64,000 nt of DNA from Diploptera punctata. Lineage: Eukaryota; Arthropoda; Insecta; Blattodea; Blaberidae. The notes under the pieces were generated by a model. That model had not been told where the DNA came from. It was given only the letters and a program-made list of their open reading frames with translations, and ran no database searches. Positions 236-63,404 of this stretch are shown here, piece by piece. The position numbers were made by a program, and so were the translations under genes. The stretch is from positions 406,501 to 470,500 of the forward strand of contig JASPKZ010002336.1 of NCBI GenBank assembly GCA_030220185.1, read 5' to 3'. The first letter of the stretch is position 1. Each line of letters begins with the position of its first letter.

Positions 236-304
236 TTTCTACAAAATTCTAACAAGTAGTATCCAGTTTTGATGTTATAGTTTTAAATTAACATTTTCCA
301 GAAT

Positions 305-425
305 TGGACATAGTTTATTTAGAAAGAAAAATTAACATTCAGACCAGAATTTGTATATAGTTAGAGATATGGGGTTCAAATCCTGGTCTAAGGATTAATT
401 TTTCTTTCTAAAATAAAAATAGTAT
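305..425 (+). repeat. tRNA-like repeat remnant (family F)
   Basis: A decayed copy is bounded by the inverted pair agaaagaaaaattaa and ttaatttttctttct. It keeps the B box-like ggttcaaatcc. It belongs to the same family as 10968-11470, 20821-21891 and 63421-63786. Confidence 0.5.
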
Positions 426-2298: not shown

Positions 2299-2458
2299 AA
2301 TTATATTATTTTTAGTCTGATCATCTTAACTCAATATTAATGTTGATTTCTTCTTGGACATGTTTCAAAACAACTCTGTTTTATCGTTGGCTTGTCCAGT
2401 CTGGACTAAAAATAATATAATTAAAATAACCTCAAAATATCACTTCCTAAAATTAAAT
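2299..2458. mobile_element. short PLE foldback, family IV, in the mariner remnant
   Basis: This 160-bp inverted structure is flanked by an exact 13-bp duplication atagtctccattt (2286-2298 and 2459-2471). The left end begins at attatattattttt; the right end extends further with the tail aacctcaaaatatcacttccta. The hammerhead-like core is damaged here (CUGACGA changed to CCAACGA). Confidence 0.85.
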
Positions 2459-4375: not shown

Positions 4376-4414
4376 ATCTAATTCTTGTAATCAAATGGTA
4401 AAGAGAAAAATGTA

Positions 4415-4490
4415 TGCCTGAACTGGGAATCGAACCCCGAACCTTCAGCTTTCCATGCTGATGCTCTTTAAGTATTGAGCTAATTCAGGC
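4415..4490 (-). repeat. tRNA-like body, family B
   Basis: Reverse-strand cloverleaf-like sequence: GCCTGAA/TTCAGGC acceptor stem, A and B box-like parts. The D region is damaged (ttaagtattgagc). Confidence 0.6.
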
Positions 4491-4789
4491 TTCCTTCCCA
4501 TCCAAGCATAAATCCTTCCTTTATCTTACTGTCTTGGTCCCACATTCAATGCAATGAATCATCATTCACAAATACACAAAATTAAGAAGACATGAAGGGA
4601 CTCCACATAGCTAAAGCTTATTTATTAAATTAATATTAAGAAGCTAAAGCTGTTACTATGATTGAAATAAGTATATTAAAGCACACAATTAAATTATTGT
4701 AATCAAATGGTAAAGAGAAAAATTTATGCCTGAACAATATACTTATTTCAATCATAGTAACAGCTTTAGCTTCTTAATATTAATTTAAT

Positions 4790-5440
4790 TTAAATTTGAC
4801 AGCCCAGAAATATTCAATGGAAATATCTACCAATAAAACTAAAATAATGGCTTTTTGTGGAAAATCTCCAATACCAAGCAAATTTTGTTTAAATAACATT
4901 TTAGAGAGAGTTAATGAGTTTACTTATTTAGGATATAAACTCTCTTTTGTTGAAAATTTGGATTTATCAGAGAAAATTGTGACATTCAACAAATCAATGG
5001 GCATCATTAATAGAGTTTTAAAACCTTCATTAGTGCAAAAATCAACTCGTACTCGTCTTTATCAAATAATGGCTCGACCAGTCCTATGTTATGGGAGTGA
5101 AGCATGGACTATAAGGACGAGAGATGAAAGCAGACTAACAGCTTGTGAGATGAGATTTATGCGCCGAACAGCTGGCTACACCAAATGGGATCGAAAGAAA
5201 AATGTAGAAATCCTTCAAGAACTTAATGTGTCACCAATACTGGACTACATCTCCAGATATCAGCTAAACTGGAAGGAACATGTCTCAAGAATGGCTAGAT
5301 CCAGGATCCCCAAGACAATAATGAACTACTGTCCAAATGGGGAAACGGTCACTTGGTCGACCTATGAAAAGATGGCACAAAAACCGCATTCTCAGGCCGT
5401 AATAGTTCTTCTAGGACTAATACCTGGCAGGATGATGATG
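4790..5440 (+). pseudogene. 5'-truncated LINE reverse transcriptase, 3' part
   Basis: The reading frame encodes the C-terminal part of a non-LTR retrotransposon polymerase: QKYSMEISTNKTKIMAF, FTYLGYKLS, PVLCYGSEAWTIR, RFMRRTAGYTKWDRKKN, SRYQLNWKEHVSRMARS. It is flanked by a 13-bp target duplication atattaatttaat (4777-4789 and 5441-5453) and ends in (GAT)n. A closely similar, longer copy is at 48333-49439. The truncated 5' end and exact duplications are typical of target-primed insertion. Recent but inactive. Confidence 0.85.
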
Positions 5441-5598
5441 ATATTAATTTAATAAATAATGCTTTAGCTATGTGGAGTCCCTTCATGTCTTCTTAATTTA
5501 GAAGTCATTCATTATGTATTTGTGAATGATTCATTGCATTTGAATGTGGGACCAAGACAGTAAGGTAAAGAAAGGATTTATGCTTGAATGGGAAGGAA

Positions 5599-5673
5599 GC
5601 CTGAATTAGCTCAATGGGTAAGAGCATCAGCATGGAAAGCTGAAGGTTCAGGGTTCGATTCCTGGTTCAGGCA
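5599..5673 (+). repeat. tRNA-like body, family B
   Basis: It has a perfect 7-bp acceptor stem (GCCTGAA with TTCAGGC), a D stem GCTC/GAGC, and an anticodon arm TCAGC-atggaaa-GCTGA, which would give anticodon GGA. The T arm has B box ggttcgattcc. It has a short variable loop, unlike real serine tRNA. Confidence 0.65.
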
Positions 5674-5921
5674 TACATTTTTCTCTTTACCATATGATTA
5701 CAATAATTTAGTTGTGTACTTTAATATACTTATTTCAATCATAGTAACAGCTTTAGCTTCTTAATATTAATTTAATAAATAATGCTTTAGTTATGTGGAG
5801 TCATTTCATGTCTTCTTAATTTAGAAGCCATTCATTGTGTACTTGTGAATGATTCATTGCATTTGAATGTGGGACCAAGACAGTAAGGTGAAGGAAGGAT
5901 TTATGCTTGAATGGGAAGGAA

Positions 5922-5997
5922 GCCTTGAATTAGCTCAATGGTTAAGAGCATCAGCATGGAAAGCTGAAGGTTCGGGTTTTGATTCCCGGTTCAGGCA
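5922..5997 (+). repeat. tRNA-like body, family B, second tandem copy
   Basis: It lies about 323 bases after the previous copy, with the same flanks (gagaaa-type left, aaatttttctctt right). One extra base in the acceptor stem and a ggttttgattcc B box show decay. Confidence 0.6.
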
Positions 5998-6317
5998 TAA
6001 ATTTTTCTCTTTATCATTTGATTACAATAATTTAGTTGTGTACTTTAATATACTTATTTCAATCATAGTAACAGCTTTAGCTTCTTAATATTAATTTAAT
6101 AAATAATGCTTTAGTTATGTGGAGTCCCTTCATCTCTTCTTAATTTAAAAGCCATTCATTGTGTATTTGTGAATGATTCATTGCATTTGAATGTGGGACC
6201 AAGACAGTAAGGTAAAGGAAGGATTAATATTTAATTTTAGGAAGTTATATTTTGAGGTTATTTTAATTATATTATTTTTAGTCTGGACATCTTACCTCAA
6301 TATTAATGTTGATTTGT

Positions 6318-6360
6318 TCCTGAACATGTTTCAAAACAATTCTGTTTTATCGTCAGCTTT
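6318..6360 (-). ncRNA. candidate hammerhead ribozyme, family IV
   Basis: CUGACGA (6350-6356), extra U, stem II AAAAC/GUUUU (6344-6348 with 6333-6337), GAAA (6329-6332), palindrome ACAUGU (6324-6329). The core is intact; stem I is weak. Confidence 0.55.
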
Positions 6361-6473
6361 CCCAGACTGGTTTTATTTATGTTGCATTATGTTGCACAAC
6401 CTGGATGTCGATGTCAGCTCCATCCTGTGGTTGGCCAAAGAACCTCCAAACAAGGTCACCCTCCATCGGTATA

Positions 6474-6930
6474 TCAAAATTCATAACTCTGTTTCTGTTC
6501 TTCTGAATATAAATTTTTTCCCAAATAGTCAACTTTTTTTGTATTTTCTAACTGTTTTAATAATTTAGTGTCTGAATTTATATTATGTTTTTCAGACCAA
6601 ACGTGAGCAGCAACTGCAGATTTTTCTATTTCCCCATTTTTAATATTTCTTATGTGTTCTTTGGTTCTAATTTTTAGGTTTCTTTTTGTTTTTCCTATAT
6701 ATATCTTTTCACAACCCATGCATTCAATTTGATATATTCCTGACTTTATTTTTTTCATTTTTGTTGGTTTTTATTAGTTTATTTAAACTGTAGTTATTTT
6801 TTGGTGCTAATTTAATATTAAACTTCTCAAATATCTTTTGAAATGTATTATGTACCCAAGGGTGATATGTGAATTTCCTATATTTTTTCATAGGTGGTTC
6901 TTCTTTTTCAAGAGTACTTCTGTTTATCAT
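6474..6930 (-). pseudogene. PLE GIY-YIG endonuclease, left arm
   Basis: The minus strand reads KKYRKFTYHPWVHNTFQKIF, then SGIYQIECMGCEKIYIGKTK and RNLKIRTKEHIRNI, in two overlapping frames. GIYQI...YIGKTKR...R...EH is the GIY-YIG nuclease core used by Penelope-type retroelements to nick target DNA. The upstream reverse transcriptase is missing and frames are broken, so this copy cannot be autonomous. Confidence 0.85.
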
Positions 6931-7134
6931 TTTTTTGTTTTTTATACTTTTCTATCCTTTTATGTACCATTTTTTCATCAAATCTGTTTTCTTTTGCTAC
7001 TTTGATTATGTGTTTTTTCTCATAGAAAAATTGAATTCGGGATTCATAGGAAAGAAACTCATACGGAAAATTTTATAAAATCAACAGGGTCATTCCAATT
7101 GGACATAAATTAGGAGCCTTTAATAGTTTAACTC

Positions 7135-7440
7135 GGGGCACGCCGTAGCGTAGTGGTTAAGGCACTGAGCTACAAGCCGGAGGGTCGAGGGTTCAAGTCC
7201 CGTTGGGGTCAGGATTTTTAAACTGACCCAAACCCTCTGGCGGCACTATGGCCCTGGGGTCGACTCAGCCTCTAACTGAAATGAGTACCAGACGCTTGTT
7301 CTGGGGTAAAGGCGGCCGTCACGCAGGGCTGACAACCCGGCTGACATAAAGTGCCGATTGTCTAGAAAAAGTGGGAGCCTTAACCTCCTACTACCCCAAG
7401 GGCCTCCTGAGGCCTGTTGTGGGATCACAAAAAAAAAATG
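7135..7440 (+). mobile_element. SINE, tRNA-headed, in the PLE
   Basis: It has an A box-like gcgtagtggttaaggc and B box gggttcaagtccc, then a body with gaccccaggg-type sequences and a poly-A tail. It is flanked by gtttaactc (7126-7134 and 7441-7449) and splits a PLE reading frame (GAFNS|LTHRLVN). Other copies are at 39228-39512 and 11858-12062. Confidence 0.85.
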
Positions 7441-8166
7441 GTTTAACTCATAGATTGGTAAACTTACCCTTAAACGAAGAAGATTTCAAACATGAGAAAA
7501 AACACATAATCAAAGTAGCAAGAGAAAACGGGTTTGATGAAAAAATGGTACATAAAAGGATAGAAAAGTATAAAAAACAAAAAATGATAAACAGAAGTAT
7601 TCTTGAAAAAGAAAAACCACCTATGAAAAAATATAGGAAATTCACATATCACCCTTGGGTACATAATACATTTCAAAAGATATTTGAGAAGTTTAATATT
7701 AAATTAGCACCAAATAACTACAGTTAAATAAACTAATAAAAACCAACAAAAATGAAAAAACTGATAAAAATAAAAAGTCAGGAATATATCAAATTGAATG
7801 CATGGGTTGTGAAAAGATATATATAGGAAAAACAAAAAGAAACCTAAAAATTAGAACCAAAGAACACATAAGAAATATTAAAAATGGGGAAATAGAAAAA
7901 TCTGCAGTTGCTGCTCATGTTTGGTCTGAAAAACATAATATAAATTCAGACACTAAATTATTAAAACAGTTAGAAAATACAAAAGAGTTGACTATTTGGG
8001 AAAAAATTTATATTCAGAAGAACAGAAACAGAGTTATGAATTTTGATATACCGATGGAGCGTGACCTTGTTTGGAGGTTCTTTGGCCAACCACAAGATGC
8101 AGCTGACATCGACATCCAGGTTGTGCAACATAATGCAACATACATAAAACCAGTCTGGGAAAGCTG
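7441..8166 (+). pseudogene. PLE endonuclease region, right arm
   Basis: Plus-strand frames encode THRLVNLPLNEEDFKHEKKH, then KYRKFTYHPWVHNTFQKIFE, and after a frame change CEKIYIGKTKRNLKIRTKEH with WEKIYIQKNRNRVMNFDIP and a C-terminal stop. Domain order is the link from reverse transcriptase to GIY-YIG. The GIY half (SGIYQIEC) is in the adjacent frame. It is the inverted partner of 6474-6930. Confidence 0.85.
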
Positions 8167-8203
8167 ACGATAAAACAGAATTGTTTTGAAACATGTTCAA
8201 GAA
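8160..8203 (+). ncRNA. candidate hammerhead ribozyme, family IV
   Basis: CUGACGA (8164-8170), extra U8171, stem II AAAAC (8172-8176) with GUUUU (8183-8187), GAAA (8188-8191), palindrome ACAUGU (8191-8196). It lies just after the stop of the PLE frame. Confidence 0.6.
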
Positions 8204-8283
8204 CAAATCAACATTAATATTGAGGTAAGATGTCCAGACTAAAAATAATATAAAGGAAGGATTTATGCTTGAATTTAATGGAA

Positions 8284-8358
8284 GCGTGAATTAGCTCATT
8301 GGTTAAGAGCATCAGCATGGAAAGCTGAAGGTTTGAGGTTCGATTCCCAGTTCAGGCA
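8284..8358 (+). repeat. tRNA-like body, family B
   Basis: The last tandem copy of the composite element; anticodon arm TCAGC-atggaaa-GCTGA. The long tail that ends the composite follows it. Confidence 0.6.
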
Positions 8359-8524
8359 TAAATTTTTCTCTTTACCATTTGATTACAATAATTTAGTTGT
8401 GTACTTTAATATACTTATTTCAATCATAGTAACAGCTTTAGCTTCTTAATATTAATTTAATATCTAATTCAGTTCATTATTACATACACACATCAAGTAG
8501 TGAAACCGTGTGTGTGTGATCTAA

Positions 8525-10967: not shown

Positions 10968-11470
10968 TAAAAAAGAAAAATTAATGTTTGAACCGAAATT
11001 TGAACCCTGAACCTCTAGTTCCATGTACTAGTATGCTATTCATTACACCATTCAAATGACGATACAAACATTAACATTTCTTTCAACTTATACAATTCTC
11101 GTTCGTCCGAAGGCTAATAGCTATTGCTACATCATGCCGACTGACATCTTCGTTAATTCAAATAAAAATATTGAAAATATGAAGCTCTACCGCTAAACAG
11201 TAATGTGTAAATTCTCAATAAAACTACTTCTTGGATAGAAGACGTCAGTTGGCGTGATGGTAGCGATGGCTATTAGCCTTCAGACGAACAAGAATATAAG
11301 TTGAAAGAAATGTTCATATTTGTATCATTGAATGGTGTAATGGATAGCACACTTGTACATAGAACTAGAGGTCCAGGGTTCAAATCCCGGTTGAAACATT
11401 AATTTTTCTTTCTTAAATTAGATTCTATCTAGGATTGGAAAGTGTTAATTCAAATAAAAACATCAAAAAT
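10968..11470. mobile_element. tRNA-like foldback element, family F
   Basis: Two inverted tRNA-like bodies (about 10985-11055 minus and 11328-11400 plus) are separated by inverted spacers with atagctattgc. It is flanked by agatcctcatt and agttcctcatt (one mismatch in 11). The left end is short; the right carries about 60 extra bases of tail. Confidence 0.65.
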
Positions 11471-12686: not shown

Positions 12687-12934
12687 AAATAAATTAATGA
12701 GTCATTTTTACATCTTACCTCATATTTCATGTTTTATTAAACACGGTAACTATAGTTTTCAAATGATCTTGTCATTCATTTTCATAACGGCGGTTGAAAA
12801 TGAATGACAAGATCATTTGAAAACTATAGTTACCGTGTTTAATAAAACATGAAATATGAGGTAAGATGTAAAAATGACTCATTAATTTATTAATTAAGAA
12901 CCTCATAATGTGTTTCCCATTTTTAACTTTGAAT
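12687..12934. mobile_element. PLE foldback, divergent-ribozyme family
   Basis: A nearly perfect palindrome of about 90-bp arms is flanked by aaggaaaattaat (12674-12686, 12935-12947). The left end is short; the right has the tail gaacctcataatgtgtttccc. The ribozyme-like place reads UUGAAAAU, stem II GAAUGA/UCAUUU, GAAAAC: stem kept, core changed. Confidence 0.8.
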
Positions 12935-13220: not shown

Positions 13221-13544
13221 CACAGACTGTCCATAAGAGGTAAAAATACACAAACTAAATATCTTAATTATTGACGATTTTATTATTAATTTAACACTTC
13301 TCATAGAAGGATAAATTATATTTGAAGAGAAAAATAATTTATCCTTCTATGAGAAGTGTTAAATTAATAATAAAATCGTCAATAGAAGCCCTACTGGCTA
13401 TAAAGTAGTGTTAAATTCCCAATAAATGTCTTCTTAACTAAGAAGCCGCCATTTGCAAAGATAGAAGCTATGGTTTCAAGCATTTGGCGCGAGGGAATTA
13501 CAATTACGTACATAAGAGAAAAATTTGCGTCTAGATCGTAACTC

Positions 13545-13618
13545 GCCTTGGTAGCTCAGTTGGTAGAGCACTTGGCCCGGAAAGCCAAGGGTCCCGGGTT
13601 CGAGTCCCGGTCTAGGCG
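13545..13618 (+). repeat. tRNA-like body, family A, unit 1
   Basis: It has a lysine-tRNA-like body: A box tagctcagttggtagagc and B box ggttcgagtcc. The anticodon arm is CTTGGC-ccggaaa-GCCAAG, one pair longer than normal and with GGA in the anticodon place. It lies between inverted gagaaaaattt and aaatttttctc. Not a normal tRNA gene. Confidence 0.7.
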
Positions 13619-13848
13619 AAAATTTTTCTCTTCAAATATAATTTATCCTTCTATGAGAAGTGTTAAATTAATAATAAAATCGTCAATAGAAGCCCTACTG
13701 GCTATAAAGTAGTGTTAAATTCCCAATAAATGTCTTCTTAACTAAGAAGCCGCCATTTGCAAAGATAGAAGCTATGGTTTCAAGCATTTGGCGCGAGGGA
13801 ATTACAATTACGTACATAAGAGAAAAATTTGCGTCTAGATCGTAACTC

Positions 13849-13922
13849 GCCTTGGTAGCTCAGTTGGTAGAGCACTTGGCCCGGAAAGCCAAGGGTCCCG
13901 GGTTCGAGTCCCGGTCTAGGCG
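13849..13922 (+). repeat. tRNA-like body, family A, unit 2
   Basis: Identical to unit 1, 304 bases downstream. Confidence 0.7.
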
Positions 13923-14152
13923 AAAATTTTTCTCTTCAAATATAATTTATCCTTCTATGAGAAGTGTTAAATTAATAATAAAATCGTCAATAGAAGCCCT
14001 ACTGGCTATAAAGTAGTGTTAAATTCCCAATAAATGTCTTCTTAACTAAGAAGCCGCCATTTGCAAAGATAGAAGCTATGGTTTCAAGCATTTGGCGCGA
14101 GGGAATTACAATTACGTACATAAGAGAAAAATTTGCGTCTAGATCGTAACTC

Positions 14153-14226
14153 GCCTTGGTAGCTCAGTTGGTAGAGCACTTGGCCCGGAAAGCCAAGGGT
14201 CCCGGGTTCGAGTCCCGGTCTAGGCG
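14153..14226 (+). repeat. tRNA-like body, family A, unit 3
   Basis: Identical to units 1 and 2, 304 bases downstream; the element ends 24 bases later. Confidence 0.7.
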
Positions 14227-14424
14227 AAAATTTTTCTCTTCAAATATAATATCTTAATTATTAAATAAAACCACCTAATGAAACTTCCTATTGTACTTTT
14301 AAAATTAATCTTCTCTGTCAATTCTAGGTATTGATTCTTTAGGTTTTACATTTTTGTGTATACTACATAGCAGTTAACTATGAATTCAATGTAAAATTAT
14401 ATAAAAGCTTTAAATCCTCAAGAA

Positions 14425-16660: not shown

Positions 16661-17475
16661 TATTCAAAGTTAAAATTGGGAAACACATTATGAGGTTCTT
16701 AATTAATAAATTAATGAGTCATTTTAACATCTTACCTCATATTTCATGTTTTATCAAACACGGTAACTATAGTTTTCAAATGATCTTGTCATTCATTTTC
16801 AACCGCCATTATGACTACCGGATATTCGTTGGAATCTCCCTCTCTAACGTTGCCATCTGGTGTTGATTTGACGAACTTCGAGATATCGTTGCCATCTGGT
16901 GTTGATTCGATGAACTTCGAGATGAGGTCACGTTCATCCGGAATGTCGAAATTCATAGATTTAAATTTGTTCTTCTGTATAAATATTTTCTCCCAAACTG
17001 TCAAATCCAAAGGTTTTTCCAAATGTTTTAGAAGTTTAGCTTCTTTTTCAATTCTATGACCTTCCAACAAACTATGTGCTGCAATAGCAGATTTTTCAAT
17101 TTCACCATTTTTAATATTTCTAAAGTGTTCCTTTGTGCGAGTGTCCAAATTTCTTTTTGTTTTTCCTATGTATACTTTATTGCAATCTCGACAATCAATT
17201 TGATAAATTCCAGATTTTTTACTATCTGGGGTGTTCATTTTCTTATTGGTTATTAATAAGTTACCAAGGCTAAATTTATTTATCGGTGCCAATATAATAT
17301 TGAATTTCTTGAAATTTTTTTGAAATTTGTTATGTATTCCAGGATGATAAGTGATTTTCTTAAATTGTTTTCCTTTCTTTGAATCAGATTGCAGGGTAGT
17401 GTATTCTTTTAATCTTGTTTAATAAAACATGAAATATGAGGTAATATGTTAAAATGACTCATTAATTTATTAATT
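16661..17475 (-). mobile_element. PLE insertion, divergent-ribozyme family, with GIY-YIG ORF
   Basis: It is flanked by an exact 11-bp duplication ttgtaagtgct (16650-16660 and 17476-17486). The left end has the full tail (gggaaacacattatgaggttc); the right is a short inverted arm ending attaatttattaattt. Confidence 0.87.
16789..17292 (-). CDS. PLE GIY-YIG endonuclease ORF, 5'-truncated
   Basis: This is the longest intact PLE frame here, 167 codons. SGIYQIDCRDCNKVYIGKTK then RNLDTRTKEHFRNIKNGEIE gives the GIY...YIG nuclease core with its Arg and Glu. A conserved C-terminal part follows (LTVWEKIFIQKNKFKSMNFD). The reverse transcriptase that normally precedes it is missing, so the frame is a fragment. 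The C-terminus reads through the ribozyme-like region (NGG...AVENE). It acts in target nicking in known PLEs; this copy is presumably not expressed as a complete protein. Confidence 0.85.
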   Translation of the reverse strand: MAPINKFSLGNLLITNKKMNTPDSKKSGIYQIDCRDCNKVYIGKTKRNLDTRTKEHFRNIKNGEIEKSAIAAHSLLEGHRIEKEAKLLKHLEKPLDLTVWEKIFIQKNKFKSMNFDIPDERDLISKFIESTPDGNDISKFVKSTPDGNVREGDSNEYPVVIMAVENE

Positions 17476-20820: not shown

Positions 20821-21891
20821 TTGAAAAGAAAAATTAATACCTGAATTGGGATCTGAACCCAAAATCTCTAGTTCTGTTTGCTAGTGTGCAAACCTTTACA
20901 CTATTTCAGGCTCCCAATGCAAATGCTAATTTTTCTTCCTCATATACAGGGTGAATCATAAATATGGCTATATGTTTGATCGCGTTGTGTGATGAAAATA
21001 TTACCATTACAGGAAATATGAAATTACCATTGGAAAGGCAATTATTCAAATTACAACAATGGAATAAAACAAACCAGCGTAGAACTTGCGTCATTAGTCA
21101 AAATGGCGTTGAATATGCAACAGCAAATTACAATTGCTGCATGGGCAATAACGTATGCTAATGATCGTGAGGCTGCAAGACAGCCAAGATGTGAGTTTAA
21201 TGTATCATTGCAGCCGTCGACTGTGGGGAAGTGGAGAAAACGACTGCTGGAAACGGGAAGGATGCAGAAAATCAAACCTCCTGGAAGGCCTCACATTAGC
21301 ACGGATGTAGAAACAACGAAGATAATTGTGGAGGCGTTCGACGCTAGCCCACAAAAATCAACCCACCAAGCTGCACGTGAGCAGTGATAATTTTTGTTTT
21401 GTTCTATTGTTGTAATTTGAAGTATTCCCTTTCCAATGATAACATCGTATTTCCTGTAATAATAATATTTTCGTCACAAAATGCGATCAAACGTATAGCC
21501 ATATTTCTGAATCACTCTGTATATTTCTCTTTATTGTCAGAAGAAGATAGCCATCGCTACCAGTACTATCTGACAGCTTCTAATTAAAAATACATTAATG
21601 CTTAACTGCTGTAAAAGTTATGTAATTTCTCATTAAAAATGTCTTCTTGAATTAGAAGCTGCCAGATAAGCACTGATAGTGATGGCTATCTGCTTCTTAC
21701 AATGAAGAGAAATGTATATGAGGAAGAAAAATTAGCATTTGCATCGGGAGCATGAAATAGTGTAATGGTTAGCACAGTAGCATACAGAGCTAGAGGTTTT
21801 GGGTGCAAATCCAGATCCAAGTGTTAATTTTTCTTTTCAAAATAATAATTGCCTATTATTGCAAATATTAAAATTTAAATTAATACATCAA
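20821..21891. mobile_element. tRNA-like foldback element, family F, with mariner insertion
   Basis: Inverted tRNA-like bodies (about 20834-20912 minus, 21753-21825 plus) are flanked by aatttcatggct (20809-20820 and 21892-21903). The left end is short (ttgaaaagaaaaa); the right has about 55 bases of extra tail. The left arm is split by 20947-21519; the right arm gives the empty site (catatacatttctc). Confidence 0.75.
20947..21519 (+). mobile_element. internally deleted mariner-type element
   Basis: It has inverted repeats of about 38 bp (cagggtgaatcataaatatg left; catatttctgaatcactctg right) and TA on both sides. The ORF at 21103-21384 encodes a helix-turn-helix N-terminus of an IS630/Tc1/mariner-type transposase (PSTVGKWRKRLLETGRM, PPGRPHIS, AREQ). 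The catalytic domain is deleted. Confidence 0.8.
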
Positions 21892-28165: not shown

Positions 28166-28289
28166 AATATTTGTCCGTTAATGCACTAGCAGCCACAATT
28201 TTTGTTTTATCAAAACCAAACTTGACATATGGCAATCATTTAAAAAAAAAGTAAAGTTTAAGTTCATTGATATTTTTATTATTGATTTA

Positions 28290-29250
28290 ACATTTCTCAC
28301 TGAAAGATAAATTATATTTGAAGAGAAAAATGTTTGCCTCGACCGAGACTCGAACCCGGGACCCTTGGCTTTCCGGGACCTCTTCAAATATAATTTATCT
28401 TTAAGTTCATTAATCAGAAAATCGAACCATTAAATGGTAGTTCACCTGAAACAAAAATTTAAAAATAGCTCTGGTAGTCACAATTTTCATTGTTTTGCAA
28501 TAAAACTCAATATGTGCTATTAAAGGGTACAGTGCAAAAAGTGGACATCCAAATTTTGATATAATAATTTTGTTTTAAAATGAAGCTTAGGAACACCAAA
28601 GACAAAAACACAAAAACAATTTATGGACCATCTACAAACAAACCAGTAAAATAACATTTTATGAAGCACTATTTTCTACATTGCCTGAAGAATGTAGTAG
28701 CCATTACAGTTGTAACATCAGTTATGATTATATTTGAGGAAAGTATTAAATTACTTTGTATTACTAAAGTATTAAATTACAGTGAGAAGTATTAAATTAA
28801 TAATAGAAACATCAGTTCTGTTGTTTGAAGAGAAAAATTTTCGCCCGAATGAGACTTGAACCCATGGCCTTTGGCTTTCCAGGCCAATGCTCTACTAACT
28901 GAGTTACCAGGGTAAGTTCCATTCTAAATGCAAATTTTTCTCTTATATATGTTGTAATTCCCGTGCACCAAATGCTATGAAACCTTTGCAAATGGCAACT
29001 TCTTAGTTAAGAATACATTTATTGGGAATTTAAACACTACTTTATAAAACCAGTAGGGCTTCTTTTGATGTTTTTATTATTAATTTAACACTTCTCACTG
29101 AAGGATAAATTATATTTGAAGAGAACAATTTTTGCCCAGGCTGAGACTCAAACCCAGAACCTTTGGCATTCCGGACCAATGCTCTACCAACTGAACTACT
29201 GGGACAAGTTCCAATCTAAATGCAAATTTTTCTGTTATATACGTTGTAAT
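28290..29250 (-). repeat. tRNA-like repeats, family A, three degraded copies
   Basis: Reverse bodies at about 28335-28382 (cut), 28843-28918 and 29133-29212, with family flanks (tttgaagagaaaaat, gcaaatttttctct) and inter-tRNA spacer. Mutated boxes suggest old copies. Confidence 0.7.
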
Positions 29251-29479
29251 TCCCCCTGATATTCATATGTTAGTTCAGGATGAAAACATGGTTAGGTATT
29301 TTCTTCAGTGAAGATACCAAATAGAAAAATATATTGTATTTTATTTTAATTGCAGAGCTATGTTTCCAAAATTACATAGCAAGAAATTAAAATTTAAGAA
29401 AATTCATATCCACACATTGATGGATCTTAAGAAAAATTGTTTAACTGAATTGATTGATAACTCAATGTTTTTATTATTA

Positions 29480-30511
29480 ATTTCATACATCTCAATGATG
29501 GATAAATCATATTTGAAGAGAAAAATTATACGCTCAGACCGGGACTTGAACCCGGGACCCTTGGTTTTCTAGTCCAAGTGCTCTACCATTTGAGCTACCT
29601 GAGCAAGTACCGATCTAAACGCAAATCTTTCTCTATATACGTTGTAATTCCCGCCCACCAAATGCTTTGAAGCCTTTGCTTCTATCTTTGCAAATGGCGG
29701 CTCCTATATTAAGAAGACATATTTGGGAATTATACATTACATTATAAATGCCAGTATGGCTTTTTTTCGATGTTCTTATTATTAATTACATACATGTATG
29801 CCAGTACGGTTTTTTTTCGATGTTCTTATTATTAATTACATACATGTATGCCAGTACGGCTTTTTTTCGATGTTCTTATTATTAATTTCATACGTGTACA
29901 AGAGTTAGATTTCATACATGTATGAAATTAATAATAAGAACATCGAAAAAAAGCCGTACTGGCATTTATAATGTAATGTATAATTCCCAAATATGTCTTC
30001 TTAATATAGGAGCCGCCATTTGCAAAGATAGAAGCAAAGGCTTCAAAACATTTGGTGGGCGGGAATTACAACGTATATAGAGAAAGATTTGCGTTTAGAT
30101 CGGTACTTGCTCAGGTAGCTCAAATGGTAGAGCACTTGGACTAGAAAACCAAGGGTCCCGGGTTCAAGTCCTGGTCTGAGCGTATAATTTTTCTCTTCAA
30201 ATATGATTTATCCATCATTGAGATGTATGAAATTAATAATAAAAACATTGAAAAAAGCCGTACTGGCATTTATAATGTAATGTATAATTCCCAAATATGT
30301 CTTCTTAATATAGGAGCCGCCATTTGCAAAGATAGAAGCAAAGGCTTCAAAGCATTCGGTGGGCGGGAATTACAACGTATATAGAGAAAGATTTGCATTT
30401 AGATCGGTACTTGCTCAGGTAGCTCAAATGGTAGAGCACTTGGACTAGAAAACCAAGGGTCCCGGGTTCAAGTCCCGGTCTGAGCGTATAATTTTTCTCT
30501 TCAAATATGAT
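29480..30511. repeat. tRNA-like foldback, family A
   Basis: A reverse unit (body 29530-29607) faces two direct units (bodies about 30110-30183 and 30410-30486). A 48-bp segment with tttttcgatgttcttatta is repeated three times at the centre (about 29767-29890). The direct units are about 300 bases apart and nearly identical. Confidence 0.75.
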
Positions 30512-32076: not shown

Positions 32077-32204
32077 TATCAACTACTACAATATAGCAAC
32101 TGTTTGAAAAAAAAAATGCTTATACCACAACTCTTCCTGTTTCTGAACTCAGACACTCTTGCAGCAACTTTACTGCATGAACTAATGAATAAAACTAAAC
32201 TGAG

Positions 32205-32610
32205 TGGAGAACATATTTTTAACGACTCACCTCATATAATTTCAAATTTCTTTGATACCGGCAGTTTCAGACAATATCTTGTCCCTCTTCAGTCATGGCT
32301 TCCACTGATAAAATTCTCTGGTTGTTGATTTCTCTAAGGACATCAATATTCCAGTGGATAAAAATTTAATTACAAAGTTTATAATCCTAACAAAAGATGG
32401 CAACACAAGAGGTGATGTCCTTAGAGAAATCAACAACCAGAGAATTTCATCAGTGGAAGCCATGACTGAAGAGGGACAAGATATTGTCTGAAACCGCCGG
32501 TATCAAAGAAATTTGAAATTATATGAGGTGAGTCGTTAAAAATATATTCTCCACTCACTATTAATGATATAACCTCATAATGTTTACTTCCCAATATTAA
32601 TTTAAATAAA
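32205..32610. mobile_element. PLE foldback with two facing ribozyme-like motifs
   Basis: Long inverted arms (tttaacgactcacctcatat... on both sides). The spacer has inverted coding-like sequence (ctctggttgttgatttctct). The right tail is aacctcataatgtttacttcc. Confidence 0.75.
32462..32505 (+). ncRNA. candidate hammerhead ribozyme
   Basis: CUGAAGA (32466-32472), extra G instead of U, stem II GGACA with UGUCU, GAAA (32490-32493), palindrome-like ACCG-c-CGGU. The facing copy at 32263-32297 (minus) also keeps the core. Confidence 0.55.
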
Positions 32611-36225: not shown

Positions 36226-36367
36226 CTCTCGATGTTTTTATTATTCATTTCATACATCTCAATGATGGATAAATTCTCTTCAAATATAATTCACCTTCTC
36301 TGTCCCTCCATTATCATTCCTCAAATAACATATACTATACACTCATCCTGTACCCATTCTGCACTAT

Positions 36368-38225: not shown

Positions 38226-38714
38226 GTATATATTTAACTTTCACAGGGAAAAAACACTTTGAGGTTTAATTTAAGAATTAAATTAATGTTTTTATTACCT
38301 CACCTCATATCCTTTTTCTTCTAGACTGCAGTTTCGGAGCCTATCTCCATCATCAGTAGCCTCTAGTCAACCATTGTTAAGTTGTTTCTTGGCAGTTTTC
38401 TTCTTCCTTCTATTGGTAGACCAATGAACCTATGGATCAGGTCAAAATTTGTGGGATTTTCGAAATTCATGAGTTTATCCACATCCAAAAAAACAAGAAA
38501 AATAAACTCATGAATTTCGAAACTCCCGCAAATTTTGACCTGATCCAGAGGTTCATCGGTTCACCGATAGAAGGAAGAAGAAAACCGCCAAGAAACGACT
38601 TAATAACGGTTGACTAGAGGCTACTGATGATGGAGATAAACTCCAAAACTGCAGTCTAGAAGAAAAAGGATATGAGGTGAGGTAATAAAAACATTAATTT
38701 AATTCTTTAAAAAA
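38226..38714. mobile_element. PLE foldback, family I
   Basis: Inverted copies of the PLE 3' end meet near 38480. The right arm encodes NKLMNFETPANFDLIQRFIG. Left end with tail (actttcacagggaaaaaac), right end short. Probable duplication aattgtata at both edges. A ribozyme-like motif lies in each arm; the right one has GAAA changed to AAAA. Confidence 0.75.
38314..38358 (-). ncRNA. candidate hammerhead ribozyme, family I
   Basis: CUGAUGA, extra U, stem II GGAG/CUCC with loop auagg, GAAA, ACUGCAGU, C, and stem I CUA/UAG: a complete canonical core. Confidence 0.65.
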
Positions 38715-38769
38715 TTGTATACTTATTTTTTAAGTATTTTCATTTTTTTGATTGGTATTATCAGTCTTT

Positions 38770-39077
38770 AATATTTAATTTAAGGAAGTTATATTTTGAG
38801 GTTATTTTAATTATATTATTTTTTGTCTGGACATCTTACCTCAATATTAATGTTGATTTGTTCTTGAACATGTTTCAAAACAATTCTGTTTTATCGTCAG
38901 CTTTTTTGTTCTTGAACATGTTTCAAAACAATTCTGTTTTATCGTCAGCTTTTTCAGAGACATCTTACCTCAATATTAATGTTGATTTGTTCTTGAACAT
39001 GTTTCAAAACAATTCTGTTTTATCGTCAGCTTTTCCATTAATATTGAGGTAAGATGTCCAGACAAAAAAATAATATA
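38770..39077 (-). mobile_element. PLE insertion with three tandem ribozyme-like units, family IV
   Basis: It is flanked by attatcagtcttt and attatcactcttt (38757-38769, 39078-39090; one mismatch). Left end full tail, right end short. The ribozyme-containing piece occurs three times in the same direction (about 38861, 38909, 38990). Confidence 0.8.
38859..39036 (-). ncRNA. three direct candidate hammerhead ribozymes
   Basis: Each copy has CUGACGA, extra U, AAAAC/GUUUU stem II and GAAACAUGUUC. The first two are 48 bases apart, the third 81. All three cores are intact. Confidence 0.6.
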
Positions 39078-40058: not shown

Positions 40059-40702
40059 ATATTTGAAGAGAAAAACTGTATGCTCAGACTGGGACTTGAA
40101 CCCAGGACCTTTCGCACTCTAGGCAAATGCTCCACTGATTGAGCTATCTGAGCTAGCTCCAATGTAAATGCAAATTTTTCTCTTATATATGCTGTTAACT
40201 CCTGTGCACCAAATGCTATGAACCTTTGCTTCAGTCTTGCAAATGGTGGCTTCTTTATTAAGAAGACATTAATTGGGATCCTACATTACATTATAAAGCC
40301 AGTACGGCTTCTTTTGATGTTTTTATTATTCATTTCATACATCTCAATAATGGATAAATCATATTTGAAGAGAAAAAAACTGTATGCTCAGACTGGGGGT
40401 CAAACCCAGGACCTTTCACACTCTAGGCGAATGCTCCATGAGTGAGCTATCTGAGCGAGCAAGCTCTATTTTTGCAAGATAGAAGCAAAGGTTTCATAGT
40501 ATTTGGTGCACGGGAGTTAACAGTGTATATAGGAGAAAAATTTTCATTTAGATTGGAGCTTGCTCAGATAGCTCACTCGGTGGAGCTTTTGCCTAGAGTA
40601 CGAAAGGTCCTGAGTTCGAGCCCCAATCTGAGCATATAGTTTTTCACTTCAAATATGATATTTCCATCATTGAGATGTATGAAATGAATAATAAAAACAT
40701 CA
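40059..40702. mobile_element. tRNA-like foldback element, family A
   Basis: Two reverse bodies (about 40080-40155, 40382-40460) and one direct (40557-40635). Flanked by aagtgatatatt and aagagatatatt (one mismatch). Left end at the short edge (atatttgaagag), right end with the tail (aataataaaaacatc). Confidence 0.65.
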
Positions 40703-40763
40703 AAGAGATATATTGCCAATATTGCTACATTTTTTAATGTTATTTTATTAATAACTGTTACAG

Positions 40764-41139: not shown

Positions 41140-42165
41140 TTAATTTTCTAACAAAATAAATATTGAATAGTAGTACATTTTATAATAGCTAATGCTATTA
41201 ATATTAATTTAATAAATATAGCTATAGCTTCATAAGAGTTAAATTAATCGTGATTATTTCATACCTCATACTTCTACATTTCTTTAAATACAGCACTGCA
41301 GTATCGGCAATTTCTTATCACCATCATCAGCTGTTTTCACGATTGTCAATTTTTACTTTTGTTGATAATTCTCCAAACTGCCATCTGATGTTCTTATAAA
41401 GAATTATTTTCTAAACTGCCATCTGGTGTTCATTTTAATTAATCATTTTCTAAACCGCCATCTGTTGTATTTTTGAAGAACTTTGTAATCAAGCTAGGTT
41501 CATCTGGAATTTCAAGTTCATAGTTCTAGTATGGTTTTTTTGAATATATATTTTTTCCCAAACTGTTAAATCTAAAGGTTTTGATAGATGTTTCGAAATT
41601 CCAGATGAACCTAGCTTGATTACAAAGTTCTTCAAAAATACAACAGATGGCGGTTTAGAAAATGATTCATTAAAATGAACACCAGATGGCAGTTTAGAAA
41701 ATAATTCTTTAAAAGAACATCAGATGGCAATTTGGATAATTATCAACAAAAGTAAAAATTGACAATCGTGAAAACAGCTGATGATGGTGATAAGAAATTG
41801 CCGATACTGTAGTGCTGTATTTAAAGAAATATAGAAGTATGAGGTATGAAATAATCACAATTAATTTAATTCTTATGAATTTGAACCTCATAATGTTAAA
41901 AATTCCCAAATTTAATATATAAAAATAGCTATAGCTGTGTGGAATCCCATCATGCTTTCTTATTGTAGAAGCCATTCAATGTGTATTTGTAAATGATGGT
42001 TCAGTGCAATGGATGTGGGATCAAGAGAGTAAGGTAAAGGGAGAATTTGTACTTGGATGGAAGGAAGCCTGAATTAGCTCAGTAGTCAGAGCATCAGTAT
42101 GTAAAGCTGAAGGTTCGAGATTTGATTACCAATTCAGGCATAATTTTTTCTATTATATTATTTTC
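41140..42165 (+). repeat. tRNA-like repeat, family B, host of two PLEs
   Basis: Body at 42069-42142 (gaattagctcagtagtcagagc, decayed), with the family spacer (ggaatcccatcatgctttct, cattcaatgtgtatttgt). Confidence 0.6.
41230..41924. mobile_element. PLE foldback, family II
   Basis: Almost perfect palindrome of a PLE end, flanked by atagctatagct (41218-41229, 41925-41936). Left end short, right end with tail gaacctcataatgttaaaaa. The arm encodes a tandem of short repeats (ccatctggtgttc type). Confidence 0.87.
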
Positions 42166-42209
42166 AGTCTGATCATCTTACCTCAATATTAATGTTGATT
42201 TGTTCTTGG

Positions 42210-42248
42210 ACATGTTTCAAAACAATTCTGTTTTATCGTCAGCTTGTC
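42210..42248 (-). ncRNA. candidate hammerhead ribozyme, family IV
   Basis: CUGACGA (42237-42243), extra U, AAAAC/GUUUU, GAAA, ACAUGU. The partner arm copy at 45277-45315 has UUGACGA, so it is damaged. Confidence 0.55.
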
Positions 42249-42429
42249 CAGACTGGTTTGATTTATGTTACATTATGTTGCACACCCTGGATGTTGATGT
42301 CAGCTCCATCTTATGGTTGGCCAAAGAACCTCCAAACAAGGTTACGCTCCATCGGTATTTCAAAATTCATAACTCTGTTTTTATTCTTCTGAATATAGAT
42401 TTTTTTCCCAAATAGTCAGCTCTTTTGTA

Positions 42430-43771
42430 CTGGGTGAGGCAATGAAACGGCACGATTTGGACTCCGGCTGACGGGCGCAGTGGGGGGTTATGGGAGTGGG
42501 GGAAACGACCTTGAGCATCTAGACAAGTGGAAATTTCAGTAGCCATGGAGCGTTGGTCAAACGTGCAACGTGCGTTTGCTGTAAAAGCATATTATAAAAA
42601 CATGGATAGTGTGGTTGGTGCCCAACGTGCTTTCCGTCTTAAGTTTAATCTACCGCCACGGGCTCCCGTGCCATCGAGGAAAGCTATCCTCCTGTGGGTG
42701 AAAAACTTTGAAGCCACTGCAAGCACGACGAAGAAAATTGGTGGTAGTGAAAAAACAATCAGGACCCCAGAGAACATTGATCGTGTGCGCGATGCATTAA
42801 CACGAAGTCCGCGAAAATCAGCAAGGCGGCACAGCGCTCAACTTGGTCTCAGCAATCGATCAGTGAGACGGATTTTGAAGAATGACCTACACTATCACCC
42901 ATACAAAATGCAGATAGTGCAAGCCCTACAACCTAACGATTACAATCATCGCATACGCTTTTGCCAAGCGATGCTTAATGTTATCGGAACAAATGGAGAA
43001 AGAGTGCATAACTTATGGATGAGTGATGAAGCCCACTTTCACCTTAGTGGTTACGTTAACAAGCAGAACTTCCGGTATTGGTCCGCAAATAACCCACGTG
43101 ATCTTCAATGAAAAACCTCTCCATCTGAAAAAGTAACAGTTTGGTGTGCAGTATCTTCTCGTGGACTCGTGGGACCCTATTTTTTTGAAGATGAACATGG
43201 TAACACAGTAACGGTGAACTCTGAACGTTATGCTGACATGTTAGTAACTTTTGGTCTGCCTGGCATCGATCAGTATGATCCAGATGAAGAAACACTCTTC
43301 CAGCAAGATGGTGCAACAAGCCATACTGCTAATGTCTCAATGGGTTTGCTGAGACTCGCTTTTCCAGGACGGCTAATAGGCAAGAATGGTGATATCCCTT
43401 GGCCCTCCCCGTTCGCCAGATTTGACCGCCCCAGACTTCTTTCTTTGGGGCTATCTTAAATGCAAAGTCTTCGAGGAAAATGCACCAAGAACAAAAGAAG
43501 ATCTGAAGGAGAGAATCCGGCAGGAAATTAACAACATTCCTTTGCAGATGCTACAGAACGCCATGGGTGGATTTCATCTTAGACTCCAACAATGTGTGCA
43601 AAACCAAGGACGTCACCTTACTGGCACCATATTCAAAAAATGATTGTTTTTTAAGGTAAAACATTAATTTCCACTCATGTACTTAAGATTCATGTTCAAA
43701 TAATTATACTCTTTTTGTAAATATATTATTGGTGATTTTTCAAAATCGTGCCGTTTCATTGCCTCACCCTG
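42430..43771 (+). mobile_element. mariner-type transposon, DD41D-like, nearly complete
   Basis: Inverted ends of about 28 bp (gggtgaggcaatgaaacggc on both sides), TA on each side (42428-42429, 43772-43773). It interrupts a PLE whose unbroken sequence is seen at 6521-6545. Confidence 0.9.
42545..43643 (+). pseudogene. mariner transposase, broken
   Basis: A start is at MERWSNVQRAFAVKAYY. Helix-turn-helix region about residues 1-120 (RSVRRILKNDLHYHPYKMQ). First catalytic Asp in MSDEAHFHLSG; second in LFQQDGATSHTA; third in SPDLTAPDFFLWGYLK, about 41 residues after the second once the frame change is allowed for. An in-frame TGA at about 43109 and a frameshift near 43400 inactivate it. The enzyme type cuts and pastes DNA at TA. 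Its good state suggests fairly recent arrival. Confidence 0.88.
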
Positions 43772-44575
43772 TATTTTCTAACTGTTTTAATAATTTAGTG
43801 TCTGAATTTATGTTTTTCAGACCAAACATGAGCAGCAACTGCAGATTTTTCTATTTTCCCATTTTCAATATTTCTTATGTGTTCTTTGGTTCTAATTTTT
43901 AGGTTTCTTTTTGTTTTTCCTATATATATCTTTTCACAACCCATGCATTCAATTTGATATATTCCTGATTTTTTACTTTTATCAGTTTTTTTCATTTTTG
44001 TTGGTTTTTTATTAGTTATTTAAACTGTAGTTATTTTTTGGTGCTAATTTAATATTAAACTTCTCAAATATCTTTTGGAATATATTGTGTACCCAAGAGA
44101 AAAACGGGTTTGATGAAAAAATGGTACACAAAAGGATAGAAAAGTATAAAAAACCAAAAAATTAGAAACAGAAGTACTCTTGAAAAAGAAAAACCACCTT
44201 TGAAAAAATATAGGAAATTCACATATCACCCTTAGGTGCACAATAAATTCCAAAAGATATTTGAGAAGTTTAATATTAAATTAGCACCGTAAAATAACTA
44301 CAGTTTAAATAAACTAATAAAAACCAACAAAAATGAAAAAAACTGATAAAAATAAAAAATCAGGAATATATCAAATTCAATGCATGAGATGTGAAAAGAT
44401 ATATAGAGGAAAAACAAAAAGGAACCTATTTGGGAAAAAAAACTATATTTAGAAGAACAAAAACCGAGTTATAAATTTTGAAATACCGACGGAGCGTGAC
44501 CTTCTTTGGCCAACCACAAGATGGAGCTGACATCGACATCCAGGGTGTGCAACATAATGCAACATGCCTACATAA

Positions 44576-45239
44576 TTTTATATATTAAATTTGGGAATTT
44601 TTAACATTATGAGGTTCAATTAATGAGAATTGAATGAATCGTGATTTCTTCTTACCTCATATTTCTATGTTTTTTTTAAACACAGCACTATAGTATCGGC
44701 GACCCATTGTCACCATCGTCAGCTGTTTTCACGACTGGAAAAGATGAAAACATCTGACGATGATGACAATGTGTCACCGATACTGCAGTGCTGTGTTTAA
44801 AAGAACATAGAAGTATGAGGTAAGAAGAAATCACGATTCATTTAATTCTTCTTCTTCTTCTTCCTTCCAAGTATTAGGCCGAGGCCTGTTACGATCCTAT
44901 AGAAAATTTTCCCTTATGGGAAATTCTCGTATAAGACTTGAAAGCATAATAGTAGTCCCTTCGATTGGTTGCTGGCCAAAGGAAGGCAAGACCAGTGATG
45001 GGGCTGCCATCTTATAGCCTCTGGTCAGGCTTTTCTGGAGAAGAAAAGAAAATAAAGGAAAGAAGAAATGGAAGAAAGGAAGGACTCCCTAGCCCTCGGA
45101 TGCCCTAATAGCGTCGGGGTCGAAAAAAACAAGAGTTAACCAAGAGAGGTTAGATAGTAAAGTTAAAAGAGTGCAAAACACAAGTAAGTGGAAGAAATGT
45201 TTTGCACAGCTTGGGCACCTTGTGGTCGCCATCCACATA
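44576..45239. mobile_element. PLE hairpin (family II) plus family D retroposon
   Basis: The hairpin (about 44585-44848) has inverted arms with tcttcttacctcat and two ribozyme-like places (stem II GAUGAC/GUCACC, but GAUA in place of GAAA). Repeat D follows (44849-45237, reverse). cctacataa flanks the block on both sides. Confidence 0.6.
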
Positions 45240-45408
45240 CCTACATAACTTAATAAATCAAACCAGTCTGGACAAGTTGACGATAAAACAGAATTGTTTT
45301 GAAACATGTCCAAGAACAAATCAACATTAATATTGAGGTAAGATGATCAGACTGAAAATAATATAATTAAAATAACCTCAAAATATCACTTCCTAAAATT
45401 AAATATTA

Positions 45409-48323: not shown

Positions 48324-48332
48324 CAATATAAA

Positions 48333-54160: not shown

Positions 54161-54194
54161 TCTAACTCAGTCACTATCAAACCCGTAGGTTCAT

Positions 54195-54755
54195 TATATT
54201 TGAAGAGAAAAATTTTCGCCTAGACCGGGACTCGAACCCGGGACCCTTGGCTTTCCGGGCCAAGTGCTCTACCAACTGAGCTACCGAGGCGAGTTTTCTA
54301 ATGATGTTTTTATTATTGATTTAACATTTCTCAATGAAAGATAAATTATATTTGAAGAGAAAATTTTTTTTTCAATAATAAAAACATCATTAGAAGCCTT
54401 ACTAGCTTTATAAAGTAATGTTAAATTCCCAATAAAAAAAAAAAATTTTCTCTTCAAATATAATTTATCTTTCATTGAGAAATGTTAAATCAATAATAAA
54501 AACATCATTAGAAGCCTTACTAGCTTTATAAAGTAATGTTAAATTCCCAATAAATGTCTTCTTAACTAAGAAGCCGCCATTTGCAAAGATAGAAGCAATG
54601 GTTTCAAAAGCATTTGGCGATAGGGAATTACAACGTATATAAGAGAAAAATTTGCATCTAGATCGTAGCTCAGTTGGTAGAGCACTTGGCCCAGAAAGCC
54701 AAGGGTCCCAGGTTCGAGTCCCGGTCTAGGCGAAAATTTTTCTCTTCAAATATAA
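54195..54755. repeat. tRNA-like foldback, family A
   Basis: Reverse body at 54216-54290 with good boxes. The direct body at about 54665-54731 has lost 13 bases of the 5' acceptor. Spacer sequences between them are inverted (tcaataataaaaacatcatt). Confidence 0.72.
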
Positions 54756-55118: not shown

Positions 55119-55542
55119 AATATATACATGTCCATATGTTATAATATTATTGGAAATTGATAATTGAAATTTGGAATAGATCGGATACATCAACTCAACT
55201 CCATTAATAACTACCAACGATAGATAGCATTCGTAAAAATGCAATAGGATCATGAAAGCCAAACTGGAATATCTAGTTTGAAATCAAATTACTTAACATT
55301 ATTCAATGTGAAGAGAGATTAAGAGTATTCTTAAAATACAAAATAAACTCTATCAACATATAGACAAACTCATGTTTCACAGATATTATTCTTCTTTGAT
55401 TTCGATAAGATTATTCAATTTAAAACATGGTAAAAGCATGTATATAATTTGTTACATTGCAATTTGTCATGATAACACTCTTGGCAGTTATTAAAATATT
55501 GAATCAATTTACATCGTTTGGATGGAAATTTTGACTACGATC

Positions 55543-63062: not shown

Positions 63063-63404
63063 ATTATATTATTTTTAGTCTGATCATCTTACCTTAATAT
63101 TAATGTTGATTTGTTCTTGAACATGTTTCAAAACAAACAATTCTGTTTTATCGTCAGCTTGTCCAGACTGGTTTTATTTATGTTGCACAACCTGGATGTC
63201 GATGTCAGCTCCATCCTGTGGTTGACATTCAGGTTGTGCATCATAATGCAACATAAATAAAACCAGTCTGGACAAACTGACGATAAAACAGAATTGTTTT
63301 GAAACATGTTCAGGAACAAATCAATATTAATATTTAGGTAAGATGATCAGACTAAAAATAAAATAATTAAAATAACCTCAAAATATCACTTCCTAAAATT
63401 AAAT
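63063..63404. mobile_element. PLE foldback, family IV
   Basis: Exact 10-bp duplication acaaattttg (63053-63062 and 63405-63414). Left end short, right end full tail aataacctcaaaatatcact. The plus-strand ribozyme-like motif (63277-63312) is intact; the minus one has an insertion before stem II. Confidence 0.87.

Follow-up and report, generated by a model that had tools for sequence, protein, structure and literature searches.

The window analysed here, a 64-kb stretch of Diploptera punctata DNA, has a G+C content of 33% and contains an ABC-transporter exon, a mariner, a LINE and GIY-YIG frames, together with 18 loci, counted by eye, of a tRNA-bearing superfamily that has three unit types: A/B/C (304 nt), D2 (324 nt) and S. 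The element A1 (Table 1) has exact edges at 13273 and 14247 and is a single insertion, with its arms lying between target duplications that are identical at 15 of 15 positions. The tRNA-like repeat that an earlier note on this DNA had placed at 13273..14250 is real, its edges being slightly refined and its target duplication perfect. A minus arm consisting of tail only is followed by a plus arm of three direct 304-nt units, which are 99% alike by the tandem-repeat call. Each of the three units gives an Rfam tRNA match of 55.5 bits, and ARAGORN reads the domain as tRNA-Ser(GGA), without a long variable arm. Because a genuine tRNA-Ser has a long variable arm and this domain does not, we refer to it as tRNA-like. 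A1 has no frame of at least 110 aa, and the GIY-YIG frames of the window sit elsewhere.

Table 1. Features of A1, other tRNA-bearing elements and Penelope-like elements (PLEs) of the window.
Feature	Position	Strand	Evidence
A1 target duplication, left copy AATATCTTAATTATT	13258..13272	.	flank comparison
A1 minus arm, long tail only (to ~13335); outer edge LONG (unit position 51)	13273..13335	-	
A1 plus arm, three 304-nt units; outer edge SHORT (...TTTTTCTCTTCAAATAT)	13330..14247	+	
tRNA-like domain, A1 unit 1, anticodon GGA	13545..13618	+	Rfam, 55.5 bits
tRNA-like domain, A1 unit 2	13849..13922	+	ARAGORN, Rfam
tRNA-like domain, A1 unit 3	14153..14226	+	ARAGORN, Rfam
A1 target duplication, right copy AATATCTTAATTATT	14248..14262	.	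flank comparison
S-type element; duplication TAGTATCCA	266..419	.	
D2-type element (324-nt units) with nested LINE (~4785-5440) and PLE (6226-8250); duplication ATCTAATTC	4385..8461	.	
S-type foldback, inverted and direct tRNA-like copy; 12-bp duplication, one mismatch	10968..11469	.	
S-type foldback with nested mariner-like insert; perfect 12-bp duplication AATTTCATGGCT	20821..21891	.	
Short A-type foldback; 12-bp duplication TTTAAGTTCATT	28269..28399	.	
B element, foldback, long edge left, short right; 12-bp duplication TGATTG(A/T)TAACT, one mismatch	29463..30507	.	
Minimal 60-nt element, inverted long tail joined to short end; perfect 12-bp duplication TTCACCTTCTCT	36230..36289	.	
C element, foldback, short edge left, long right; duplication AG(T/A)GATATATT	40059..40703	.	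by eye
Rearranged A-type element; no duplication found	54190..54752	.	
PLE-derived foldback; duplication ATAGTCTCCATTT; hammerhead core departs from strict pattern	2299..2458	.	
GIY-YIG PLE with hammerhead core, foldback, one long and one short edge, in D2 element	6226..8250	.	
Hammerhead foldback, PLE-derived; duplication ACAAATTTTG	63063..63404	.	

We scanned the window for target duplications at 17 tRNA-type loci and seven PLE-type insertions, with edges set by eye and a cross-locus pairing null whose 95% and 99% points lie at scores of 8.5 and 10.5. A score of at least 9 was obtained at 8 of the 17 tRNA loci, and four of these eight exceed 10.5. The C1 locus has an 11-bp duplication with one mismatch when read by eye (scan score 7.5), and the duplication of the locus at 63 kb appears once a nested PLE is discounted (scan score 7.0); at loci E, F, G, J2, K, 24 kb and 12.9 kb the scan gave no duplication. 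Nine tRNA elements compared side by side each have one short and one long outward edge on opposite strands, the short edge of the element at 28269-28399 lying ~8 nt further outward than usual. The target duplications of 8-12 bp that had been claimed for these repeats are present, and the B element has one of 12 bp, but that of A1 is longer, at 15 bp. The repeat at 54190-54752, a candidate for the further family F of that note, has the arrangement described for it, but no duplication was found there.

To extend these observations to the host genome (3,123,318,691 bases in 10,165 contigs), we searched it with unit A, which gave 769 first-look candidates; 40 were scored, with 185 matches, those listed being 98-100% identical. 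The resulting sample of 36 A loci (35 fetched, plus the window) comes from these 40 of 769 and so contains young copies only. Thirty loci are two-armed and six are one-armed (L014, L017, L031, L033, L035 and L039). Setting aside three two-armed loci that are cut by the fetched stretch (L019, L036 and L037) leaves 27 with both edges readable, among which 25 have one short and one long edge, none has two short or two long edges, and two (L028 and L041) are of unclear edge class. The foldback or tandem arrangement described in the earlier note, with outward ends of the same polarity and one end longer than the other, is that of 25 of the 27 readable two-armed A loci.

The duplication score reaches at least 10.5 in 23 of these 27 loci, the others being L015, L028, L040 and L041, and reaches 11.5 in 22 of all 36, against a random-pairing null with a mean of 6.1, a 99% point of 11.5 and a maximum of 20.5. 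That copies across the genome should show duplications, and edges unlike those of a DNA transposon, was part of the earlier proposal, and is what we find: the same unit position on both sides occurs in none of the 27. In unit coordinates, the 23 loci that score at least 10.5 place their long edge between 43 and 54 (mode 51) and their short edge between -3 and 14 (mode 6), and the two are spaced 37-51 nt apart (median 46). Duplications are 11-16 nt long among the scored loci, with one mismatch each in L016 and L038, the exception in length being L022 with an imperfect 26-nt match. Two one-armed loci have duplications (L031, 12 nt; L035, 11 nt), and none of the remaining four rises above the 99% point of the null. 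The arms themselves vary in size, the smallest being less than one unit and the largest, in L009, holding ten full units.

Unit B gave 265 candidates, of which 40 were scored, with 105 matches, and 16 loci were fetched, 11 two-armed and five one-armed. Six of the 11 have a duplication (L082, L087, L088, L091, where it is imperfect, L092 and L094) and all six have one short and one long edge; L083, L089 and L095-L097 run off the fetched stretch or show no duplication. Duplications are also carried by the one-armed loci L084 and L085. In 48 kb from eight arbitrary places, on contigs known to hold PLEs, nine tRNA-element loci were found in five of the eight stretches, and two of them (L076:4357-4973 and L079:1865-2191) have, by eye, duplications of 15 and ~13 nt with one short and one long edge. 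Overall, tRNA-element insertions have target duplications of 9-16 bp and usually consist of two opposite arms meeting inside.

We compared these edges with those of the PLEs of the same genome, using as query the GIY-YIG protein of the window at 16789-17418. The search gave 213,813 first-look candidates, and the 150 that were scored are 96-100% identical; PLEs are abundant and young in this genome. Among 30 loci of the P2 family (L044-L073), 16 contain a total of 18 edge pairs with a duplication score of at least 9, of which those of L047 and L048 probably come from a single site that was read twice, and those of L054, L059 and one from L045 are less typical; the other 14 loci show no such pair within the fetched 3.6 kb. 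In every P2 pair the long edge is at most 16 nt from the query end and the short edge 41-51 nt before it, and once edges are fitted to the duplication, the spacing measured in 14 of the 18 is 30-46 nt (median 41.5). All seven PLE-type insertions picked by eye in the window (2299-2458, 6226-8250, 12687-12934, 38770-39077, 41230-41918, 42153-45408 and 63063-63404) have a duplication score of at least 9 with one short and one long edge. The two edges of the PLEs lie on opposite strands. Thus, the comparison of repeat edges with PLE edges proposed earlier shows the one-short-one-long rule to be common to both. In its passages on PLE structure, PMC8969392 mentions inverted pLTRs and short 3' extensions, without this pairing.

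In one P2 member a frame of 708 aa, which runs off the fetched stretch, matches RVT_1 (2.7e-12) and GIY-YIG (3.5e-06). Hammerheads of the PLEs were absent from the Rfam matches even at an E value of 5, and the core pattern CTGANGA...GAAAC was used instead. It occurs 19 times in the window against 0.5 expected, never within a tRNA unit; the 3' end of P2, our main comparator family, does not match the strict core. In the tRNA units it is the tRNA-like domain that sits just upstream of the short edge, in agreement with the earlier observation of a structured RNA near the shared end. Three long near-perfect hairpins of the window (38249-38731, 54753-55125 and 32201-32557), which have Rfam miRNA matches below the cut-offs, hold hammerhead cores and look like PLE-type foldback elements.

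Another way to view the edges is as the points at which cDNA synthesis starts. Across 22 A loci (L022 being left out), the target shares 2.6 nt on average with the continuation of the unit at the long edge, compared with 0.42 by chance, and 3.8 nt at the short edge, compared with 0.48, with at least 1 nt shared in 21 and 22 loci respectively; the corresponding value for the short edge of PLEs is 2.1 nt against 0.48 (14 of 18 pairs). Taking duplications at their maximal length admits chance matches on both sides, an effect that the null shares but only approximately. Because target and unit have ~3 nt in common at each edge, it is probable that the RNA extends further than both, with the nicked target probably annealing within it and reverse transcriptase (RT) starting inside a longer or circular RNA. 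Base preferences at 22 tRNA-element target sites and 20 PLE sites (13 from the 18 P2 pairs and seven from the window) correlate at 0.36 and 0.28, where random sites have a standard deviation of 0.12-0.13 and reach a maximum of 0.42 in 500 sets, so that the observed values lie within the extreme of the random sets; this is supportive but weak evidence for a kinship of insertion with PLEs.

At the 30 arm junctions, the arms overlap by 1-6 nt in 19 cases, abut exactly in one, and are separated in nine by 1-16 nt, partly element sequence, between the aligned arms; L019 has 138 nt there. The allele at unit position 220 is mostly uniform across the units of one element, a pattern in keeping with a single source locus for a circular or multimeric template. 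In four elements (L010, L014, L024 and L039) T and C are mixed at this position, which disfavours a template that is strictly a monomeric circle. Small indels resembling sequencing error blur the comparison of unit identities, for which only the substitution count was used.

The predicted fold of one A1 unit provided a 24-bp leader-trailer stem that encloses the tRNA. We folded 29 copies and examined this stem in 24 copies of three types, the alignment omitting two identical A1 units and three copies in which a junction interrupts the upstream strand (C1m2, F1m and G2), and never including the copies at 336, 12.9 kb and 24 kb. For the stem, 86.8% of cells are paired and 11 of 24 pairs show two-sided changes, compared with 58.4% and 4 pairs for the best slid control; for the cloverleaf the figures are 86.1% and 13 of 20 pairs, compared with 43.7% and 6. 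With shuffled partners, none of 500 trials reached the observed paired cells, two-sided cells or covariation score for either fold, relatedness of the copies inflating the covariation scores; the number of two-sided pairs was reached in 13 of 500 trials for the stem and 76 of 500 for the cloverleaf, and the number of pair types was not raised over the shuffles in either. In 380 of 490 comparisons (26 copies, four groups), the upstream strand of a copy also pairs better with its own downstream strand than with one from a different group, with hardly any difference between A and B/C, the contrast being with D2 and S. Concerted change through foldback copying is an alternative way of keeping the stem complementary. 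The inner half of the enclosing stem and the acceptor stem use the same 3' strand, making the two folds mutually exclusive there, and for A1 the predicted hairpin is favoured, at -63.2 kcal/mol versus -50.0 with the cloverleaf enforced.

Direct links between the two groups were sought in their sequences. A profile and shuffled alignments gave no convincing shared sequence between tRNA units and PLE tails, although one PLE tail, at 32577, comes within two mismatches of an 18-nt unit motif, and we make no case for an origin of the units from the 3' end of a PLE. We found no autonomous PLE with the same tail as the tRNA units, and one tail pattern had no match in public viral and prokaryote contigs. 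A hammerhead core followed by the A tail has 32 matches in the genome compared with none for a reversed-pattern control, and three of the 32 were examined. At L099:560-1338, a degraded GIY-YIG PLE fragment with a hammerhead core runs directly into a tRNA unit where its usual 3' end would stand, the 5' end of that unit lying just beyond the RNase Z site; L098:735-1220 has a stretch of tRNA unit inside a hammerhead foldback element, and in L100 a hammerhead core adjoins a partial tRNA. No surrounding duplication was found for L099 or L098, and none of the three proves template switching by one RT. Where tRNA elements lie near PLEs (L066, L068 and L073), that of L066 is by eye a separate insertion with its own 12-bp duplication.

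It is conceivable that tRNA processing has a part in a cycle driven by PLEs, with cuts by RNase Z or RNase P setting the 5' ends of the template. Within the unit, the tRNA stops at position 290, and AAATTTTTCTCTTC comes next; from the T run (T5) it is 11-12 nt to the short edge and a further ~45 nt to the long edge. An RNA terminated by Pol III at T5 or cut by RNase Z cannot give either edge, because both lie beyond, and neither edge falls at a processing site. The leader-trailer stem, competing with the acceptor stem and favoured in the A1 prediction, would presumably impede processing as well. Arm 5' ends tell more in favour of a processing role, since 10 of 66 fall at unit positions 290-294, the RNase Z site, where 1.1 are expected (binomial 1.3e-07), for a stretch defined after seeing the list of ends and prompted by the RNase Z idea. 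The covarying cells of the cloverleaf and the L099 unit, which starts just past the same site and is fused to a PLE remnant, point the same way. On the RNase P side, however, there are 3 of 66 ends against 1.3 expected, and the tRNA body as a whole has 21 where 16.5 are expected, which is no excess. The pile-up at 290-294 is explained equally well if RT is arrested by the tRNA or if arms are joined at the A/T run, which favours microhomology joining. We regard a role for processing in the cycle as possible but doubtful, and the earlier suggestion that RNase P and RNase Z, or Pol III transcription, make a unit-length template finds no support in its original form, in view of the edges past T5 and the tRNA 3' end, of the microhomology at both edges and of the competing stem.

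If the units were tRNA-derived SINEs moved by a LINE, twin priming could yield the foldbacks and template jumps the tandem units; Pol III A and B box-like sequences in the tRNA-like region (read from the alignment), target duplications, 5' truncation and the six one-armed A loci would all be in keeping with this, and the LINE nested at ~4785-5440 also has, by eye, a 13-bp duplication. Twin priming would, however, leave one random internal edge, whereas the outer edges are fixed unit positions that follow a rule common to the PLEs of the genome, the tRNA adjoins the short edge rather than forming a 5' head, and the edges compared have neither a poly-A nor a short-repeat tail, so that we think this origin improbable. 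It is scarcely credible that the elements are foldback or MITE-like DNA transposons with tRNA-derived terminal inverted repeats (TIRs): inverted arms are present at both ends, and S-type elements do resemble long TIR elements, but equal edges are lacking at every readable locus, the duplications vary in length from 9 to 16 bp, and the arms differ in unit number and mostly meet with microhomology. The almost identical tandem units might suggest a satellite, or a product of recombination in which unequal exchange multiplied the units once a SINE had inserted; this too is very unlikely, as most arrays lie inside a target duplication at their own site, with two arms and fixed outer edges, and the same unit recurs at many unrelated places.

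We consider it likely that the tRNA units are young non-autonomous retroelements mobilised by the RT/GIY-YIG endonuclease of PLEs, their candidate helper. The PLE-like working is seen directly in the architecture of the insertions, and we infer it for the protein. The earlier idea of non-autonomous elements moved by PLE machinery accordingly stands in respect of edges, polarity, duplications and the lack of a frame, and lacks support in respect of the tRNA-processing step. In such a mechanism the PLE complex would bind a structured domain, a hammerhead in many PLEs and the tRNA-like domain in the tRNA units; both nicked target strands would prime cDNA by annealing in the AT-rich tail, one at a short and one at a long site; a multimeric or circular RNA template would let RT run past several units; and the two cDNA arms would be end-joined. 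A fuller version, which we put forward tentatively and hold to be rather unlikely in its entirety, is that a tRNA-like RNA replaces the hammerhead in a large PLE-dependent superfamily; that this RNA is bistable, with both pairings conserved and the tRNA 3' acceptor strand pairing either in the cloverleaf or in the leader-trailer hairpin; that a circular or multimeric template is copied from two starts ~45 nt apart, one per target strand; and that RNase Z supplies some of the template 5' ends.

By analogy, the tRNA units are best described as a PLE-moved, tRNA-type counterpart of the metazoan (non-LTR) retrozymes. As characterised in sections of Cervera and de la Pena 2020 (PMC7229834), these are tandem, non-autonomous, AT-rich units of 150-450 bp with target duplications of more than 4 bp, a compact structured RNA and type I hammerhead ribozymes, for which PLEs are proposed as the mobiliser; PMC8969392, in its remarks on retrozymes, allows that they may count as a new type of SINE. 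The tRNA units are likewise tandem (304 or 324 nt), AT-rich and non-autonomous, with duplications of 9-16 bp, but have a tRNA-like domain and no hammerhead core. Judged by sequence, they are not members of the metazoan retrozymes, because the hammerhead is absent, and the account of retrozymes given in those sections of PMC7229834 does not describe foldback insertions with one short and one long edge. With PLEs, in the features outlined in part of PMC8969392, they share 5' truncation, tandem copies, inverted pLTRs and short 3' extensions, and, within the host genome, the same edge rule and similar duplication lengths; the PLE mode of insertion (5'-truncated tandem or inverted copies, with a 3' extension at one edge only) is seen at 25 of 27 A loci. 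PLEs, however, encode RT and GIY-YIG, and several families here have a minimal hammerhead core, whereas the tRNA units encode nothing, and to go by their lack of a frame they are not autonomous PLEs. Like tRNA-derived SINEs, as sketched in portions of PMC8969392 and PMC10294476, they are short and non-autonomous with a tRNA-related region and target duplications. They differ in having the tRNA near the 3' edge rather than as a 5' head, arm 5' ends that vary, a T5 run before both edges, and two-armed insertions with the signature of PLEs and not of LINEs. A small host-type RNA fold is also built into the Cassandra TRIMs, which are non-autonomous retroelements of plants, of LTR type, with 5S RNA rather than a tRNA inside their LTRs.

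The significance of these elements, if our reading is correct, is that PLE machinery can use an RNA without a hammerhead at its end. A tRNA-like fold in the place of the hammerhead would then favour a binding or boundary role for PLE ribozymes over self-cleavage alone, and repeats now classified as SINEs of the tRNA type, or as tRNA genes, may rely on PLEs. The one-short-one-long rule, together with the microhomology at the edges, provides a testable picture of how PLE cDNA starts on both target strands.

Several other features of the window were noted. A LINE-like frame is present in two copies (4785-5440 and 48324-49269) that are 96% alike over 300 nt; the first is nested in the D2 element and has a 13-bp duplication ATATTAATTTAAT by eye. 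The mariner-like insert within an S-type tRNA element spans 20947-21520 and has, by eye, CAGGGTGA-type inverted ends. An exon-like frame at 23724-24116 matches the ABC-2 family transporter protein PF12698.
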